Position numbers and translations under genes: made by a program. The notes beneath the pieces were generated by a model. That model saw nothing but the letters and a program-made list of their open reading frames with translations, was not told the DNA's origin and ran no database searches. 64,000 bases of DNA from a virus, in the IMG/VR virus record IMGVR_UViG_3300021180_000005, positions 1-64,000 of that record. One strand, given 5' to 3'. Within the stretch, counting starts at the first letter, position 1. Each line of letters begins with the position of its first letter. Shown here piece after piece: positions 10,344 through 58,313 of the stretch.

Positions 10344-11042
10344 ATGCCACGACGCACCCATGGTATGACCAATTCACCAGAGTACATAGCGTACAAGGAT
10401 GCAAAAGCACGCTGTGAAAATACTTCTCACAAGAAGTGGAAAGACTACGGTGGTCGTGGTATTAAGTTCCTGTTCTCTTCGTTTGAGGAGTTCTACAGCT
10501 TACTAGGTAAGCGTCCAAAGGGAAAATCTTTAGACAGATTTCCCAACAACGATGGAAATTACTGCCAAGGCAACGTTCGTTGGGCTACCACTAAACAACA
10601 ACAGAACAACCAAAGAAGGCGCACCGCCTCAACTAGCAACACAGGATTCATAGGAGTCTATAGACGGAAAAACAATGGAAAGTTTGCCGCTCGACTCATT
10701 GTGCAAGGTAAAAGATTTCACCTTGGAAACTTTGACACTTTAGAAAAAGCCGTAGAGGCTAGAAAACAACAGGAGAATATACATGTGCGCTGCACCAAAT
10801 ACATCGACCACGAAACCGGGACCATCTTCTACGACTACAACAGTCCTTACAAAGCCAGTACCAAAGTGGCTCAAGATGAAACAACAGAACAAGTCTTCAG
10901 CCGGAAAGACCGCAAAGCCTATCGTGAAGCCATCAAGCAGCGCACAGAAGCCTCAACAAGACACAAGAAACGCCAAGCGAGCACGCTGGGCAAAGAAGTC
11001 GTTGCCAAAACAAAAACCAGTAGCGCCAAAACAAGAGCCTAA
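10344..11042 (+). CDS. HNH-AP2 homing endonuclease
   Basis: Residues 1-95 form the nuclease: HGMTNSPEY, RCENTS, DYGGRGIKF, SLDRFPNNDGNYCQGNVRWA, a common phage HNH type. Residues 103-147 (GFIGVYRRKNNGKFAARL then FHLGNFDTLEKAVEARKQQ) form an AP2 DNA-binding domain. From about residue 147 the frame runs 260 bases through the following gene, so the last 85 residues are probably read-through. AGGAGAAC precedes the ATG. Confidence 0.85.
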   Translation: MPRRTHGMTNSPEYIAYKDAKARCENTSHKKWKDYGGRGIKFLFSSFEEFYSLLGKRPKGKSLDRFPNNDGNYCQGNVRWATTKQQQNNQRRRTASTSNTGFIGVYRRKNNGKFAARLIVQGKRFHLGNFDTLEKAVEARKQQENIHVRCTKYIDHETGTIFYDYNSPYKASTKVAQDETTEQVFSRKDRKAYREAIKQRTEASTRHKKRQASTLGKEVVAKTKTSSAKTRA

Positions 11043-11280
11043 GTTTGAGTACATAACAGCGTGCTGTTCAGCGCCTGCACGTAAGCCAAAAGCTGGTCAA
11101 AGAGAAAGTGTAAAAGACCCAGATTCAGGAAAGATGAAAGACCAACCTAAAGGCTTAGGAAAATGGCGCTGTGCAGGTTGTGGTAAAATAGCAAAGGTAG
11201 CACCAAGGAAACCAAGTGCCGCACAAGAACCCAGCAGTTCGCAAAGCGTATCACAAACGCTACTACAAGCAGTACTATAA
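10783..11280 (+). CDS. zinc-ribbon protein with basic, low-complexity N-terminus
   Basis: A 165-residue protein. AGGAGA lies six bases before the ATG within the nuclease ORF. Residues 1-90 are Lys/Pro/Thr/Ser rich and likely disordered; then ITACCSAPARKPKAG and KWRCAGCGKIAKV provide a two-pair Cys site (CC and CxxC), typical of small phage zinc ribbons. The C-terminal 20 residues are read through the next nuclease start. DNA or RNA binding is inferred from charge. Confidence 0.65.
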   Translation: MCAAPNTSTTKPGPSSTTTTVLTKPVPKWLKMKQQNKSSAGKTAKPIVKPSSSAQKPQQDTRNAKRARWAKKSLPKQKPVAPKQEPKFEYITACCSAPARKPKAGQRESVKDPDSGKMKDQPKGLGKWRCAGCGKIAKVAPRKPSAAQEPSSSQSVSQTLLQAVL

Positions 11281-11698
11281 GAAAAACAAGAAACACATAC
11301 TTCTGCTTCACAAACAGTGGCGTAAAAATGGTAAAGGTGCAGAAGCATCGCGGCGAAACAGAAAGAAATATCCACAGAAAGCACGCGATGCTTCTCGTGA
11401 GTGGTCAAAAAGAAACCCTGAGAAGCGCAGAGCAAGCAAACATACCTATAGAGCCAACAAACGTGGTAATGGTGGTTCCTATACTCCTACGCAATGGGCT
11501 GCACTATACAATAAACACAGAAACAGGTGCTTGTGCTGTGGCAAAAAGAAAAGACTATCACCAGACCATGTTGCTCCTATATCCAAAGGTGGGACAAGCA
11601 ACATAGGTAACATACAACCACTTTGTCTGCCTTGTAACCTTAGAAAAGGTAATAAATCTATAGACTACAGGAGAAAACATGAGGCAACTCAGGGCTAA
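11216..11698 (+). CDS. HNH homing endonuclease
   Basis: GTG start behind AAGGAA; 160 residues. Lys/Arg/Tyr-rich arm (AYHKRYYKQYYKKNKKH, REWSKRNPEKRRASKH) then CLCCGKKKRLSPDHVAPISK with DH, and NIGNIQPLCLPCN. Nearly the same architecture as the nuclease at 3525-4022, so a duplicated element that moved within this genome or lineage. Both its ends overlap neighbours (65 bases upstream, 20 downstream). Confidence 0.85.
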   Translation: MPHKNPAVRKAYHKRYYKQYYKKNKKHILLLHKQWRKNGKGAEASRRNRKKYPQKARDASREWSKRNPEKRRASKHTYRANKRGNGGSYTPTQWAALYNKHRNRCLCCGKKKRLSPDHVAPISKGGTSNIGNIQPLCLPCNLRKGNKSIDYRRKHEATQG

Positions 11699-15627: not shown

Positions 15628-16695
15628 ATGTCAACAGCAGGTACAAAACGCGTTCTAGATTTAAATCAAAGAAGCCCAGAAGTGGAAACTCTTGTGCAAA
15701 CCCTTAATAAACGTATTGTGGGTCAACCTGAAGCCGTGAACGTACTTGCTGACATAGTAGAGACGTACCAATCTGGTCTGTGTGACCCTAATAGACCTGC
15801 AGGTGCAGCGTTATTTATGGGTGTTACAGGGAGTGGAAAAACTGCAACTGTAGAAGCAGCTTGTGAAGCTTTGTTTGGCAGTCCTCGCGCATGTGTAAAA
15901 ATAGATGCCACTGAGTTTCAATTTTCCCATGAGGTAGCAAAGCTGGTAGGAAGTCCCGCTGGGTACCTTGGTCACCGCGAGACTCCTGCATTGTTGAACC
16001 AAAAGCGTCTACAAGCATTTCACACCAAAAAGCTAAAACTTGGAATTGTGCTGATCGATGAAATAGAGAAAGCCAGCGATGCCCTATGGCAACTGTTGTT
16101 GGGCATTTTGGATAAAGCTACGTTAACTCTTGGGGATACATCTGTGGTTAATTTTAGCCAGTCTATCATTGTGATGACCTCTAACCTAGGAGCTAAGGAC
16201 ATGTCTAGGCTAATGCTAGGTCAAGGACTTGGGTATCATGCAGAGAAAGTAGTTACAGTAGACAAAGGCAAGATTACGGACATTGCCAAGCAAGCTGCAG
16301 TTAAACATTTCACCCCAGAATTCTTGAACCGGGTAGACTACACCGTAGTGTTTAATCCTTTAACCGAAAATGACATTCGTAAAGTAATGCACATTGAACT
16401 AGGTTTGGTACAAAAGACAATGTGGGATGTAGGTAAGTTTATTTACCAATTAACTGATGCCGCAAAAGAGAAAATACTAGAGGAAGGGTTCAGTAAGGAG
16501 TATGGAGCTAGAAACCTTAAACGCACTATTGAGAAGCGTATACGTATGCCTCTAGCTAGGCTTTTGGCTTCAGGGCAAATTGCTCAAGGGGACTGCGTAG
16601 TAATAAGTGATTCTGGTCAAGAGCAATTTGAGTTCTCTATTCAATCGTTACAATCCACCGCTGTTAAATTCACAGACACAAAGGAAATTCTATGA
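15628..16695 (+). CDS. ClpB/ClpA D2-like AAA+ ATPase
   Basis: A 355-residue protein equal to only the second AAA+ ring domain of ClpB/ClpA plus its small C-terminal domain. It has the VGQPEAV box, Walker A GVTGSGKT (66-73), pore loop GSPAGYLGH, Walker B IVLIDEIEKA (about 141), sensor 1 VMTSNLGAK, an arginine finger in FLNRVDY and sensor 2 GARNLKR. The N-domain, D1 and coiled-coil M domain of ClpB are absent, as is any ClpP-binding loop that I can recognise. Probably a protein-remodelling unfoldase acting on phage or host complexes. AAAGGAGA precedes the ATG. Confidence 0.9.
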   Translation: MSTAGTKRVLDLNQRSPEVETLVQTLNKRIVGQPEAVNVLADIVETYQSGLCDPNRPAGAALFMGVTGSGKTATVEAACEALFGSPRACVKIDATEFQFSHEVAKLVGSPAGYLGHRETPALLNQKRLQAFHTKKLKLGIVLIDEIEKASDALWQLLLGILDKATLTLGDTSVVNFSQSIIVMTSNLGAKDMSRLMLGQGLGYHAEKVVTVDKGKITDIAKQAAVKHFTPEFLNRVDYTVVFNPLTENDIRKVMHIELGLVQKTMWDVGKFIYQLTDAAKEKILEEGFSKEYGARNLKRTIEKRIRMPLARLLASGQIAQGDCVVISDSGQEQFEFSIQSLQSTAVKFTDTKEIL

Positions 16696-16907
16696 TCATT
16701 GACCCGCTGTTTGACACGACACAGTTAAGCGCTGATGGCTTAATGAAGTTAAAAGAAATTCGCATTGCTTTTACCAACCTTTTATACCAGCTACGAGACA
16801 CAGTGCCCACTACTGGAAGAGAATGGGCAATTGTTCAGACTAAACTAGAGGAAGCATCCTTCTTCGCTGTGAAGTCTCTAAAGAACCAACAATCCAACCG
16901 AGAGTAG
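16692..16907 (+). CDS. Acb2/Tad1-hairpin-like small protein, anti-CBASS candidate
   Basis: Seventy-one residues, ATG overlapping the AAA+ stop. The core LKEIRIAFTNLLYQLRDTVP then GREWAIVQTKLEEASFFAVK matches the signature of Acb2-family proteins (R-E-x-x-x-x-x-T-K-L-E-E-A-x-x-W/F-A), hexameric sponges that bind cyclic oligonucleotides and block CBASS, and Thoeris signals in some cases. Size is as expected. Located as the last gene of the + strand unit, typical for accessory anti-defence genes. Assignment rests on motif recognition only. Confidence 0.65.
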   Translation: MIIDPLFDTTQLSADGLMKLKEIRIAFTNLLYQLRDTVPTTGREWAIVQTKLEEASFFAVKSLKNQQSNRE

Positions 16908-16911
16908 ATAC

Positions 16912-16983
16912 AAAAAAAAATAGCCCTCAAACTGAGGAGCAGGCCGCTAGGTCTGTTCTTTAGTTTGAGGGCTATTTCTATTT
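16912..16983. terminator. strong bidirectional terminator
   Basis: A perfect 16-bp inverted repeat (16918-16933 and 16962-16977) around a 28-base loop that itself can form a 5-bp stem. An A9 run on the left and a T-rich ATTTCTATTT on the right give a U tract in both directions. It lies exactly between convergent units: the + strand operon ending at 16907 and the - strand unit ending at 16982. Confidence 0.9.
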
Positions 16984-17128
16984 ATGGCTTACAGATACTT
17001 TGACAGCCGGAACCGGTACATCCCGATACACAACAACAATTAGTTGCTCCTCCATCTGCTTTGGCAGTGGATACAGTTGACGTTGCAAAAACAATTAGCA
17101 ATGCAACCATGATAAGTGTCTTAATCAT
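16982..17128 (-). CDS. secreted cysteine-rich peptide, 48 residues
   Basis: Read on the - strand: MIKTLIMVALLIVFATSTVS then TAKA form a clear signal peptide (cut after AKA), leaving about 24 residues with six Cys (CCC, C, C, C in NCCCVSGCTGSGCQSICKP). AGAGGAAA lies seven bases before the ATG. The last gene on the - strand before the terminator. Disulfide-rich or metal-binding secreted peptide; no family recognised. Confidence 0.6.
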   Translation of the reverse strand: MIKTLIMVALLIVFATSTVSTAKADGGATNCCCVSGCTGSGCQSICKP

Positions 17129-17915: not shown

Positions 17916-17991
17916 TGGTAGGGCGACTCGGACTCGAACCGAGGTTGCAGCGTTTTGGAGACGCGCCGATTGGCCGCTATCTTATCCCCCT
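17916..17991 (-). tRNA. tRNA-Trp (CCA)
   Basis: A 76-base cloverleaf on the - strand. Acceptor AGGGGGA pairs with TCGCCCT except for one G-G mismatch; D loop with GG; anticodon loop CTCCAAA giving anticodon CCA; T arm CTCGG-TTCGAGT-CCGAG; 3' CCA is encoded. Trp is rare in bacterial genomes but enriched in several virion proteins here. Confidence 0.88.
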
Positions 17992-17998
17992 GAAAGTC

Positions 17999-18072
17999 TG
18001 GAGGGTCCGCGTGAGATCGAATCACTTTCCCCAGAGTCACAGTCTGGAGCCGACACCAGTCGGTACGGACCC
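17999..18072 (-). tRNA. tRNA-His (GTG)
   Basis: A 74-base cloverleaf, seven bases upstream of tRNA-Trp in transcription order. Acceptor GGGTCCG pairs perfectly with CGGACCC; anticodon stem CCAGA/TCTGG with loop CTGTGAC giving GTG; T loop TTCGATC; encoded CCA. The base before the acceptor is A and the discriminator is T, so the usual G-1:C73 identity pair of bacterial tRNA-His is not encoded. Confidence 0.82.
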
Positions 18073-51906: not shown

Positions 51907-52677
51907 CTAACTGTTGATCGGACTGGGCCATGTACAATGGCTCCACGTGCGATCCGCATGATCCCTGTAGTACTGTTCCTCTTCTGAGAAAGGCTTTTCT
52001 AAATACCACGGCGTATGCTCCATTACGTACGGCATGTCCATACGAATATTTTGCCATCCTGCCCCAATCCATGGTGAATATGAATTGTAAATAGCAAAAG
52101 TGGTATCTATAGGTGCTAAAAACTCTCCAGAGGAGTGTTTTTTCTTCCAAAATACACCTTCACCTTCCCAACCTTTACCGTCTCCATTGGTGATAAAGTC
52201 TCTGCTTAAATCAGGTATATTGTCTAGTCTAAGGCCGGGACCTACCTTACCACACCCCGGATTATCCTTAAGCAACCCTAGAAGCTTATCCACAAGGTCT
52301 GTTGGGCAACACTCTGACGGTATAAGATCAGAATCCGTCACCACGTATGGTGTTGCTTGCGTTAGGTGCCTCCCAGTGCTCCAAAAACCCCATGGACCTA
52401 GGTTAGCCTGTATTTCCACCGTTACGCCCTCTGGGAGGTCTCTATACCACTCCAGAAGAGGTCCGTAGGTGCTAGCGTTGTCCAAAATGACCACTTTTAC
52501 GGTGCCTGCCTTCAAAAGCCATTCTATTAATACTTTGGTACTGCTCAACCTGTCTCGATTGTTCACGAAGATTGGGATGTCTGAAGCCTGTACTGGGGTA
52601 ATTGGCGGTATGTCCACGTTACTTGTGGGACGTACTTGAACCGTGCTCCTGCTGAGGCGGCGTTTAGGAAAGTCCAC
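51907..52677 (-). CDS. GT2-like glycosyltransferase
   Basis: GTG start behind GGAG; 256 residues overlapping the upstream gene by 115 bases. IPIFVNNRDRLSSTKVLIEW, VVILDNASTYGPLLEWYRDL and YVVTDSDLIPSECC (DSD metal motif) give a GT-A fold. A later GTG at the NVDIPP segment is an alternative start. Substrate unknown. Confidence 0.7.
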   Translation of the reverse strand: MDFPKRRLSRSTVQVRPTSNVDIPPITPVQASDIPIFVNNRDRLSSTKVLIEWLLKAGTVKVVILDNASTYGPLLEWYRDLPEGVTVEIQANLGPWGFWSTGRHLTQATPYVVTDSDLIPSECCPTDLVDKLLGLLKDNPGCGKVGPGLRLDNIPDLSRDFITNGDGKGWEGEGVFWKKKHSSGEFLAPIDTTFAIYNSYSPWIGAGWQNIRMDMPYVMEHTPWYLEKPFSEEEQYYRDHADRTWSHCTWPSPINS

Positions 52678-53969
52678 TGATCTTCTCCGGGGTAGTGTTT
52701 AAGGTCAAATCCGCCGATTTTCTCGAACATGCTTCTGCGGAATAAGCATGTAACAGGAATGTAGTTAGCAGTTTTAACTTCATCATAGTTAAATTCCCTA
52801 GTGCGCCAAGTTTTTACAAAGCCTTCTTCTTGGCAATCACTGTATATAACATCTGCGCCTTCACTGGCTGCTGCTAAAACTGCAATATGTTCAGGCATGA
52901 GGAGGTCATCATCATCACAAAAAGCCAACCATTCATATGACTGATCTATGCCTTGTACAATGGTATTGCGCATTGTGGCGGCACCAACTTTATAGCAGTC
53001 TTCTTCCACAGCGTGCAAAATTTCCCCATCCCATGTCTGAGCTTTAACGGATGCCTTGCATTCCTCAAGAAGTTTACTTCTACTTGCCACTGTGGGAGTA
53101 ATCACAGCTATTTTTCTTATTTTATGTTCTCTGCCCTCTGGGTTAAACATTTCGTGTTCCCAATCATAAAATTCACGTATGTCTTTATTATGAAACCCAC
53201 TTACTGGAGCAACTACACCTTGCATCCAAGCAGTGTGCTTATCATATACCCACGATTTATCAAACTTTGACGGAGAGCCTTCTACGTAGTTTGTACGCGA
53301 TAGATGTATGCTAATGGTACTGTTGTTGTGCTCTGGACCTCTGCCATATACATTCTCCTCATACCGAGTATCGTGGTGTATTTTTAAGTCTTCATGAGTA
53401 TACACCAAGCCACCTGTCCAGCGGTCTTCGGCCCATGTTAGGACGTTTAATACTTTTGTCACCGGAGCATTGTTCGGCCTATGTGGTGCCCTTGATCTTA
53501 AAGGTCTTCTATTTGGAGACACTACTACGATTGTGTCCTCTATGGGGATATGCGCAGTTGCCAATGGTCCATATGCTTTTTTACTTAACCAATAACCAGA
53601 GCCTCCAGTGGCATATGCAAAGCCGCCCTGCGGCCTGCACGCAAAGTTGCCAACATAATCGTATTTCTCAAACCCACTATTTAACAACCTGCTGGGACAT
53701 ACATATGTATCAGGGAAACACTTAAAAATAAAATCATACTCATGTTCCAAAGCCCACTTATACATAGCACGCGTTTTATAAGTAACATTCTGGTAGTCAT
53801 CTGGGACATCTAAAAATACTTCATCAGGTTGAGAACAGATGCTCCCTTGTCCCATAAATATTCTGTAATCTGCCCCAGATACCAGAGGTAACCACGTGTC
53901 CCGCATTGCTTGATTGTTTCCGTTTGTGCGGAACAATTCGCAAGACAATACCGCTATGAGTACTTTCAT
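52563..53969 (-). CDS. fused GT31-like / GT2 glycosyltransferase
   Basis: A 468-residue two-domain enzyme. Residues 1-260: VLIAVLSCELFRTNGNNQAM then RDTWLPLVSGADYRIFMGQG, FIFKCFPDTYVCP, SGYWLSKKAYG (GT31-like). Residues 280-468: IAVITPTVASRSKLLEECKA, FCDDDDLLMPEHIAVLAAAS, SMFEKIGGFD and PGEDQWTF (GT2, DxD motif). Two transfers by one polypeptide, or a hub of the glycan assembly line. ATG overlaps the membrane protein stop. Confidence 0.8.
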   Translation of the reverse strand: MKVLIAVLSCELFRTNGNNQAMRDTWLPLVSGADYRIFMGQGSICSQPDEVFLDVPDDYQNVTYKTRAMYKWALEHEYDFIFKCFPDTYVCPSRLLNSGFEKYDYVGNFACRPQGGFAYATGGSGYWLSKKAYGPLATAHIPIEDTIVVVSPNRRPLRSRAPHRPNNAPVTKVLNVLTWAEDRWTGGLVYTHEDLKIHHDTRYEENVYGRGPEHNNSTISIHLSRTNYVEGSPSKFDKSWVYDKHTAWMQGVVAPVSGFHNKDIREFYDWEHEMFNPEGREHKIRKIAVITPTVASRSKLLEECKASVKAQTWDGEILHAVEEDCYKVGAATMRNTIVQGIDQSYEWLAFCDDDDLLMPEHIAVLAAASEGADVIYSDCQEEGFVKTWRTREFNYDEVKTANYIPVTCLFRRSMFEKIGGFDLKHYPGEDQWTFLNAASAGARFKYVPQVTWTYRQLPQYRLQTSQSS

Positions 53970-56378: not shown

Positions 56379-57380
56379 CTAATCCTTTAAAACTCTTAGC
56401 CATTGCTTGGCACTACGCCTAGCGTAAATAACCAGTTTTATACTGTTAAACAACGCGCTTATAACACCTAGTGGACATAGCTGCCGAGATATGCCATTCT
56501 CTATGGCTTTCACATTTGTCTCTGGAACAATAGACAAGAAAGAAGCCCACGGTACTTGAGAAGAACAAAGCAAAGGTGTATATACGGACACCGCATCTGC
56601 TGCAGTTAAGCAAAATGTTTCGGTAAAAGATACGCACATTGCTAAGTCCATCTTGCTCATTGTCACAAGGAAAGCCCTACGCTCTAACCAAGGCAGTTCC
56701 TTAAGAGTATGCTGTGTATTAGCAAACAGAGACCTGAGATTCTTTAACACTTCTTCTCCTCCCTGCTCTACTCTGGAGTTTACGTAGAAGTGCAGCTCTT
56801 TGCTTTTGTTATTGGCATAACTTATTGCTGCCATGGCTTGCTCTAGGTGGTTTTTCAGTGGACGTATTGCTCCGAAGCATCCTATATGCAATGCTGGATG
56901 TTTAAATTCACTATCATACCTAGTCTCTGGGTAGTAATTAGGAAGGTATAAGAAACCTCTACTGCTGCCTGCTGCTTCTTTGAAAGTTTCTCTTGCTCTT
57001 TTATCGTTAAATGCTACGTACACGCCTCGCTTTATGTACTCAAAAACCCATGACACCGCTACGCCTTCGCTGGCTAAGAATGGCACATCGCTATGCAGTC
57101 TTACTATCCACTTAACGTTTGGATGCAGATTTTTCAATATGTCGAATTTCTCTGGTACAACCCACAGAGCTTCTACTATAACCACGTCTGGTCTAAACTC
57201 GGTTACTTCTTTGTCTATACCGTTGTTATCCACTACGGTCACTAACTCAGCGTCAACTCCGTTATCTCGTAGCATATCCACTACAAACTTTGCAGAATTA
57301 AAAAGGCCGCTTGAATTGTAGTGGTGCTTACCACCGCCGTGTGTATAGCCATTTTTCTTAAGTATAAATAGTACTTTCAT
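56379..57380 (-). CDS. GT4-like glycosyltransferase
   Basis: ATG at 57380 behind GGAGAC gives 333 residues; the longer frame reads the noncoding leader. MKVLFILKKNGYTHGGGKHH is a GT-B N-terminus, HIGCFGAIRPLKNHLEQAMA the nucleotide-sugar region, and SFTETFCLTAADAVSVYTPL the E-x7-E-like GT4 region. Joins the glycan island, although separated from it by structural genes. Confidence 0.8.
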   Translation of the reverse strand: MKVLFILKKNGYTHGGGKHHYNSSGLFNSAKFVVDMLRDNGVDAELVTVVDNNGIDKEVTEFRPDVVIVEALWVVPEKFDILKNLHPNVKWIVRLHSDVPFLASEGVAVSWVFEYIKRGVYVAFNDKRARETFKEAAGSSRGFLYLPNYYPETRYDSEFKHPALHIGCFGAIRPLKNHLEQAMAAISYANNKSKELHFYVNSRVEQGGEEVLKNLRSLFANTQHTLKELPWLERRAFLVTMSKMDLAMCVSFTETFCLTAADAVSVYTPLLCSSQVPWASFLSIVPETNVKAIENGISRQLCPLGVISALFNSIKLVIYARRSAKQWLRVLKD

Positions 57381-57463
57381 TGTCAAGTCTCCATTGCAGG
57401 TTTGGGGGTTTCTGTAATGGACTTGGCCAGTAGGTCCAAAGTATTTGCGATATAAATAAGCAT

Positions 57464-57530
57464 AGGGGGAGTGGAGCAATATACCTCTAACGGACTCAGA
57501 TCGTTAGTTGTTTATACTCACACTCCCCCT
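57464..57530 (-). ncRNA. long symmetric stem-loop, unknown RNA
   Basis: A 10-bp perfect outer stem (57464-57473 with 57521-57530, GGGGGAGTG core), a symmetric 13/13 internal loop, and a 6-bp inner stem CTAACG/CGTTAG with a nine-base loop. On the - strand the loop reads ATCTGAGTC, complementary to the GACTCAG found at many late ribosome sites. Lies in the untranslated leader of the GT4 gene. Confidence 0.55.
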
Positions 57531-57641: not shown

Positions 57642-58226
57642 TTAATGACGAGCAGCAATCTCTTTGCAAAGTGCTATGAATTCATCATGTGACAAACTTT
57701 GTTTTGCAAGGTTTGCATCCTTACAACATGGTACGCAGTTCTTTAGCGTATAACCTATAGCTGAGTCTAAACGGTCAATTCCGTTATATGTGTAGGTATC
57801 ATTACCTACCAAAGATAAACCACGTTTGGTTCTATTTCGTGAACTTACAGATGTGTATATGTTTGATGGTTCTCTACCTGTGTAATAGCAGGGAGATTCC
57901 GTAAGTTTTCTAAACTGTTCCTGAGTCAGTTCCCACATAATGCCACGGCTTTTAGCTTGACCTTTGTAATTTCCAAATAGTCCACTAAACTCTGGATTGC
58001 TCACTGTACGAAGACAACCACAGCTGCCTACACGGTTAGACCTTAGCTCATTAGTAGGGACATTTTTAGTATTACCACAGTCACAAAAGCATTGCCACGC
58101 TGTGATTCCATTTTCACTGATGCGTTTTTGCACCACTAAGCGCCTAAAGCGCTGTCCTTCTAAGTCTAAGTGCGCTTTTATTTTTCTAGGTGCTAAATCT
58201 TTACTTCCTTTTGGTCTTCCTAACAT
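57642..58226 (-). CDS. HNH-related homing endonuclease
   Basis: A 194-residue protein: an N-terminal GRPKGSKDLAPRKIKAHLDL and GQRFRRLVVQKRIS module, CFCDCGN and CGCL zinc pairs, then CYYTGREPS, YNGIDRLDSAIGYTLKNCVP and CCKDANLAKQSLSHDEFIAL, an IDRxDxxxGY-type nuclease core. Preceded by a two-hairpin leader and AAGGAGG. Located upstream of the noncoding RNA region at 57.5 kb. Confidence 0.82.
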   Translation of the reverse strand: MLGRPKGSKDLAPRKIKAHLDLEGQRFRRLVVQKRISENGITAWQCFCDCGNTKNVPTNELRSNRVGSCGCLRTVSNPEFSGLFGNYKGQAKSRGIMWELTQEQFRKLTESPCYYTGREPSNIYTSVSSRNRTKRGLSLVGNDTYTYNGIDRLDSAIGYTLKNCVPCCKDANLAKQSLSHDEFIALCKEIAARH

Positions 58227-58240
58227 GATACCTCCTTCAA

Positions 58241-58302
58241 AGGTCGAGAAGGGAGCAGTTGAAGGCTGCTCCCAACTCTGACTCAGGATTATAAGCCCTG
58301 AG
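58241..58302 (-). ncRNA. two-hairpin leader RNA, copy B
   Basis: On the - strand: hairpin I CTCAGG/CCTGAG with loop GCTTATAAT, linker TCAGAG, hairpin II GGGAGCAG/CTGCTCCC framed by GAG/CTC, then GACCTTT and AAGGAGG before the nuclease ATG at 58226. Stem sequences differ from the other copies but pairing is preserved. Confidence 0.7.
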
Positions 58303-58313
58303 GTATTAAAAAT

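Follow-up and report, generated by a model that had tools for sequence, protein, structure and literature searches.

An Acb2-type hairpin protein, a candidate nucleotide sponge, encoded by an uncultivated and probably acidobacterial virus

The window analysed here, a stretch of 64,000 nucleotides, belongs to the 103,649-base record of an uncultivated soil virus. Analysis of its nucleotide sequence indicated an open reading frame on the + strand, at positions 16692-16907, which starts with ATG, ends with TAG and encodes a protein of 71 residues; both this frame and the signature GREWAIVQTKLEEASFFAVK, located at residues 42-61, were found exactly as the initial annotation had given them. Its ATG and the stop codon TGA of the gene in front of it (15628-16695) overlap in the sequence ATGA, and the antisense strand of the frame is interrupted by stops. 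The features of the locus are as follows.

15628-16695, + strand: AAA+ ATPase of the ClpB-D2 type, 355 aa, operon neighbour (PF07724, 3.8e-32; PF10431, 1.2e-17; phrog_4871, 1.2e-81)
16681-16685, + strand: Shine-Dalgarno-like AAGGA, 6 bases 5' of the ATG (sequence reading)
16692-16907, + strand: Acb2-type hairpin protein P0001, 71 aa (PF24729, PHROG 1454, PDB 9ptq, AlphaFold2, Foldseek)
16719-16721, + strand: codon ACA of residue 10, Thr (in 33 relatives: 31 His, 1 Tyr, 1 Trp)
16815-16874, + strand: codons of the signature, residues 42-61 (translation, alignment)
16918-16977, no strand assigned: terminator-like hairpin of 28 bp between convergent units (-50.5 kcal/mol for 16900-17000, z -10.1)

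In the AAA+ protein only the D2 AAA domain and the small domain of ClpB were matched by Pfam, the N-terminal and D1 domains being unmatched. Its gene is part of a + strand unit (1-16.9 kb) that also carries genes for endonuclease VII, a helicase, a primase/helicase and RecA, all of the replication and recombination kind. Gene 16692-16907 is the last one on the + strand; beyond 17.0 kb the long open reading frames lie nearly all on the - strand, and the skews switch sign around 16 kb. The hairpin at 16918-16977 looks bidirectional, because the A run before its stem reads as a stretch of T on the - strand. The description of 16692-16907 as the final gene of an early-type unit, next to the terminator, thus holds for its position as the last + strand gene followed by a 28-bp hairpin. 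The early character of the unit is not supported by a promoter scan, which returned 7 promoter-like matches against 9.0 +/- 3.1 expected and so did not exceed chance. The last open reading frame of the opposite unit, at 16982-17128 (- strand), faces the gene and encodes 48 residues, hydrophobic at the start and rich in cysteine in the tail (CCCVSGCTGSGC).

Comparison of the 71-residue protein with PF24729 ('Acb2/Tad1, hairpin domain'), a check suggested in the initial annotation, gave a significant match of 34.7 bits (E 2.1e-8), above the curated Pfam gathering cut-off of 27 bits, with residues 12-62 of the protein on model positions 5-55. The lack of such a match, named in the annotation as part of what would refute the idea, thus did not arise. 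A search of the whole record revealed this protein as its single PF24729 match (34 bits). PHROG 1454, to which no function is assigned, also matched (E 5.8e-7), and each of the two profiles hits every one of the 34 sequences in the family alignment described below. No match was found in NCBIfam or in PADLOC-DB, a collection of defence models. The phmmer search of the PDB retrieved one chain, 9ptq 'Acb2 homolog 43' (E 2.6e-6). A held-out profile, constructed from the 33 relatives only, was run on the six-frame open reading frames of the window and of three other phage stretches and scored 72.0 bits (E 5.9e-21) on 16692-16907 and 19.8 bits on T4 Vs.4; among 10,000 shuffled versions of the protein the highest score was 9.6 bits. 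The 34-row family profile, with the window protein included, matched 9ptq at 8.4e-25 and T4 Vs.4 (7uq2) at 0.0044 among PDB entries. Profile-profile comparison with the T4/p26 Acb2 group aligned 30 C-helix columns with a probability of 92.8 and an E-value of 3.9e-7. Acb2 of the Pseudomonas phages (p26; the 8h2j and 8ixz sets) is linked to our protein by this joint-group comparison and, weakly (E 0.03), through T4 Vs.4, but it is not matched directly by the branch profile and its IKGYRDL start is not common to both. These results establish the 71-residue protein as a genuine Acb2/Tad1-hairpin family member; the family is already known, and the protein is a new and somewhat unusual member of it.

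No relatives were found in viral contigs by a scan with the single sequence, while a scan with a three-row seed alignment yielded 40 loci, 35 of them in viral contigs and 5 in contigs of genomes, the latter binned as Acidobacteriota (2), Alphaproteobacteria, Bdellovibrionaceae and Paceibacterota. Searches of annotated phages by tblastn, using the 71-residue protein and two relatives, revealed homologues in Mycobacterium, Gordonia, Arthrobacter, Streptomyces, Paenibacillus, Sulfitobacter and other phages. Most of these are named hypothetical, and StellaBean gp101 is named 'cyclic nucleotide sequestering protein'. This protein of a Cluster E mycobacteriophage belongs to the same family, having the FxxH...GREKAVVKTKLEEA core in common and 38% identity over 60 residues (tblastn), but its close kin L032 falls in a separate actinophage clade and its gene adjoins one for a ClpP-like protease.

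Three observations concern individual homologues. The protein of Paenibacillus phage Ash (L052:1489-1704) and the hit H143 are annotated as '(putative) phosphomannomutase' in Paenibacillus larvae phages; for Ash the name looks wrong, because PF24729 identifies its protein as a hairpin protein (80.7 bits). The family match in cyanophage S-2L carries the name 'tail assembly protein'. Locus L005:5572-6213 comprises, in one frame, about 140 unrelated N-terminal residues and a C-terminal Acb2 hairpin, the hairpin being the only part matched by Pfam, and may be a fusion.

The family alignment consisted of 34 rows, the window protein included; 7 of the 40 loci were left out, L011, L014, L018 and L020 as copies of others and L030, L036 and L037 for their uncertain starts (F-x-x-H was also seen by eye upstream of the hairpin in these three), and L005 was trimmed to its hairpin part. 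Seven residues, F7, R43, T50, K51, E53, E54 and A55, were invariant in 34/34 rows, the conservation at residues 44-59 being partly built in because the scan patterns spanned these residues, with residues 7, 10 and 43 outside the patterns. Judged from this alignment, the conserved C-helix core R43, T50, K51, E53, E54 and A55 is present in the window protein. The identity of the protein to any relative in the phylogenetic tree was at most 49%. The fork that unites it with 9ptq had a support of 87/70 and was not starred, so that the tree does not place the protein firmly.

An AlphaFold2 model of the single chain, predicted with the 34-row alignment as input (pLDDT 92.3, pTM 0.74), showed an antiparallel hairpin of two helices at residues 14-35 and 43-65 preceded by a short helix at 5-7. 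The protein shares the PF24729 hairpin domain with Tad1, as the Pfam name indicates, but the model contains no strands of 3 or more and lacks the N-terminal beta-sheet domain described for Tad1 (PMC12043709); the protein is therefore of the Acb2 type. Foldseek against the PDB placed two chains of 9ptq, entitled 'Acb2 homolog 43 in complex with 3'cADPR', in the top two rows (TMq 0.83 and 0.82, rmsd 1.1-1.2, E 3.7e-3) and T4 'Vs.4 in complex with cGAMP' (7uq2) third (E 2.5). VIA-align gave 9ptq a Z of 9.0, which is within the range that helical arrangements can attain without kinship, 7uq2 a Z of 6.7 and unrelated helical chains 6.4 and lower. Rows 1-15 of the BFVD search were all named Acb2/Tad1 hairpin proteins (E 0.05 to 0.7). 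Kinship could not be decided from the fold match by itself, because the Foldseek E-value is modest and unrelated helices can reach such a Z; structure and sequence together decide for kinship with the Acb2 hairpins. Acb2 homolog 43 is similar in length (76 residues against 71), is 36% identical over 64 aligned residues (rmsd 1.1) and has the F-x-x-[H]-x-[LV] start and the GRE..KTKLEEA.FFA core in common with the window protein; it differs in that the H of its FxxH is T in the window protein, and the tree does not join the two firmly.

Gene 16692-16907 very probably encodes an Acb2-type sponge, whose binding of nucleotides we infer. The 71-residue hairpins would form a hexamer, as solved Acb2 proteins do; the six chains present in each of the entries 9ptq and 7uq2 fit such an assembly. 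The pockets between subunits would hold nucleotide immune signals tightly, without cutting them, and with the signals captured the host effectors would stay off during infection, a form of immune evasion. The ligand is the least certain step, about equal weight being given to the cADPR isomers of Thoeris and to the cyclic di- or trinucleotides that serve CBASS and type III CRISPR, and both could bind. Tad1 has been reported to bind both kinds of ligand. The relatives lie beside varied neighbours in many virus contigs, which fits a stand-alone counter-defence gene. The sponge reading calls for some caution, as the identity to relatives in the tree does not exceed 49%, residue 10 is altered, so that a pocket could be changed or lost, NCBIfam and PADLOC-DB gave no match, and a scan of the neighbours of 16692-16907 with Pfam and PHROG recognised no other counter-defence gene.

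Since the gene overlaps the AAA+ gene as ATGA, its product might instead be an adaptor or partner of the coupled ATPase and not a sponge. Two homologues have a protease gene next to them: a ClpP-like gene precedes the Acb2-type gene in phage StellaBean (L002:2187-2966), and a gene for an HslV-type peptidase follows it in Rhizobium phage RHph_N2_6 (L046:831-1295), neither arrangement being general among the relatives. Against a partnership, the AAA+ gene (15628-16695) was found in 0/11 other phage records, 9 of them of relatives and 2 of Tunturi phages, in a search that had no positive control. The neighbours of the relatives likewise argue against it. From 34 of the 40 loci (L011, L014, L018, L020 and L036 were left out, and L026 had no usable neighbour) 64 neighbour proteins were collected, each the longest nearby + strand open reading frame of at least 80 aa, some of them possibly spurious; no Pfam family occurred in more than 2 of them and CLP_protease occurred in 1. 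We consider an adaptor of the ATPase very unlikely. Partnership with Clp as a general rule was rejected, the neighbours of relatives being varied and the AAA+ gene not having been found in the 11 records. The putative sponge gene seems to stand alone, without a conserved partner, and hairpin relatives occur in many virus contigs without a fixed partner gene.

The best phage matches of the helicase were Tunturi_3 and Tunturi_4 of Tunturiibacter, a genus of the Acidobacteriaceae (41% and 37%), and the same two phages gave the best matches of RecA (47% and 50%), which makes an acidobacterium the probable host of the virus. PF24729 is absent from both phages according to the same search that detects the match in the record of the window, and the held-out profile gave a marginal match on Tunturi_4 (E 0.013). 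Near a convergent unit of Tunturi_3, a gene for 89 aa overlaps the end of an ATPase gene by one base; synteny with this pair was rejected, as the ATPase is not matched by the AAA+ protein of the window, nor the 89-residue protein by the family profile. Among 200 genomes of the presumed host order, taken as the order of the genome that carries locus L040, a CD-NTase (SMODS) match was found in 20 and a match to STALD, a domain which we take to mark ThsA, in 3, so that both types of signal may exist in the host order. The present gene would add an uncultivated virus, probably one of acidobacteria, to the sources of Acb2-type sponges.

Alignment of the start region revealed that the 33 relatives carry H (31), Y (1) or W (1) at position 10, where the window protein has T; 9ptq carries H at the equivalent position. 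The alignment from F7 to L12 is gapless, and T10 is therefore not an alignment slip. In the branch around 9ptq, which we call the FxxH branch for its invariant F and near-invariant H, F is found in 33/33 relatives; the window protein retains F7 but has T in place of H10, and was therefore assigned to the family but kept out of this branch. The substitution may mean that the pocket or its specificity differs; T10 is a lead and not a result. It could mark a specificity variant of the Acb2 fold, which would catch a different immune nucleotide or ignore the decoy of a guard system in phages that probably infect Acidobacteriota, an idea we regard as unlikely on present evidence. T10 offers a natural test of whether the start residue governs ligand choice. 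The same substitution might also indicate a partly blunted Acb2, in which the change at H10 removes or weakens one site and so avoids guards of the Panoptes type at the cost of some sponge activity; Panoptes is described as punishing Acb2 activity, phages losing or mutating Acb2 in response (PMC12657218, PMC12657230). The frame, however, is intact and all seven invariant residues are kept, which argues for continued function, and we hold such blunting to be improbable.

Within the sponge reading, the evidence on the ligand points in two directions. The initial annotation proposed a sponge directed mainly against CBASS, binding cyclic di- and trinucleotides. The founding Acb2 proteins act in this way (PMC12043709, PMC11722364), cyclic dinucleotides being bound at one site and trinucleotides at another (PMC12043709). 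In T4 Acb2 the exchange Y8A disrupts cyclic dinucleotide binding (PMC12657218), and for Acb2 T68M a lowered binding affinity is described (PMC12657230). T4 Acb2/Vs.4 has PF24729 and the KTKL.EAS of the C-helix in common with the window protein, in which the invariant T50 of the KT motif aligns with T4 T68 and is thus retained. The T4 protein is longer between the helices, with 88 aa against 71. Its GY start, N20 and K23 are not conserved in the branch of the window protein; all rows of a six-row T4/p26 set share G7, Y8, N20 and K23. In the Pfam register (T4 7-83 on model 1-58) T4 Tyr8 falls on T9 of the window protein, while the VIA end points (model 1 on chain 1) allow F7 instead, so that no tyrosine of the dinucleotide pocket can be assigned. 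CD-NTases in 20/200 genomes of the presumed host order favour a CBASS target; against it stand the unassigned pocket tyrosine, the 3'cADPR in the crystals of the closest solved homologue and a host that is itself only probable. A mainly anti-CBASS sponge is a serious candidate to which we give somewhat less than an even chance.

A sponge of the Acb2 fold directed mainly against Thoeris would bind 3'cADPR and/or 2'cADPR rather than the cyclic oligonucleotides of CBASS. It draws on the nearest solved structure by both sequence and fold, Acb2 homolog 43 with 3'cADPR, on the position of T4 Tyr8 at T9 in the Pfam register and on N20 and K23 of the T4/p26 group, which this branch does not conserve; on the other side, the tree does not clearly put the window protein into the 9ptq clade, H10 is missing, and the ThsA-type STALD is rare in the presumed host order, where SMODS is commoner. 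We judge this target plausible, yet short of probable. The label 'Acb2-like' does not by itself imply 'anti-CBASS', as the nearest relative of known structure was solved with a Thoeris-type signal, and the reading of the label is corrected in this sense: PF24729, fold and relatives agree on a sponge candidate, and the anti-CBASS part is not established, given the 3'cADPR in 9ptq, the T4 pocket tyrosine without a clear counterpart and T10. With 3'cADPR in the nearest solved relative, the protein is most safely described as a nucleotide sponge that may be directed at signals of Thoeris, of CBASS or of both systems.

Several further features were recorded in the window. An HNH endonuclease lies at 11216-11698 (+), an AP2 domain of the type found in homing endonucleases was matched below threshold at 10344-11042 (+), and four further open reading frames that looked nuclease-like by eye had no Pfam match. 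Three tRNA genes (Trp, His and Phe) lie at 17916-18072 (-) and 58226-58309 (+), and two glycosyltransferase-like proteins were identified with PHROGs at 52563-53969 and 56379-57479 (-).
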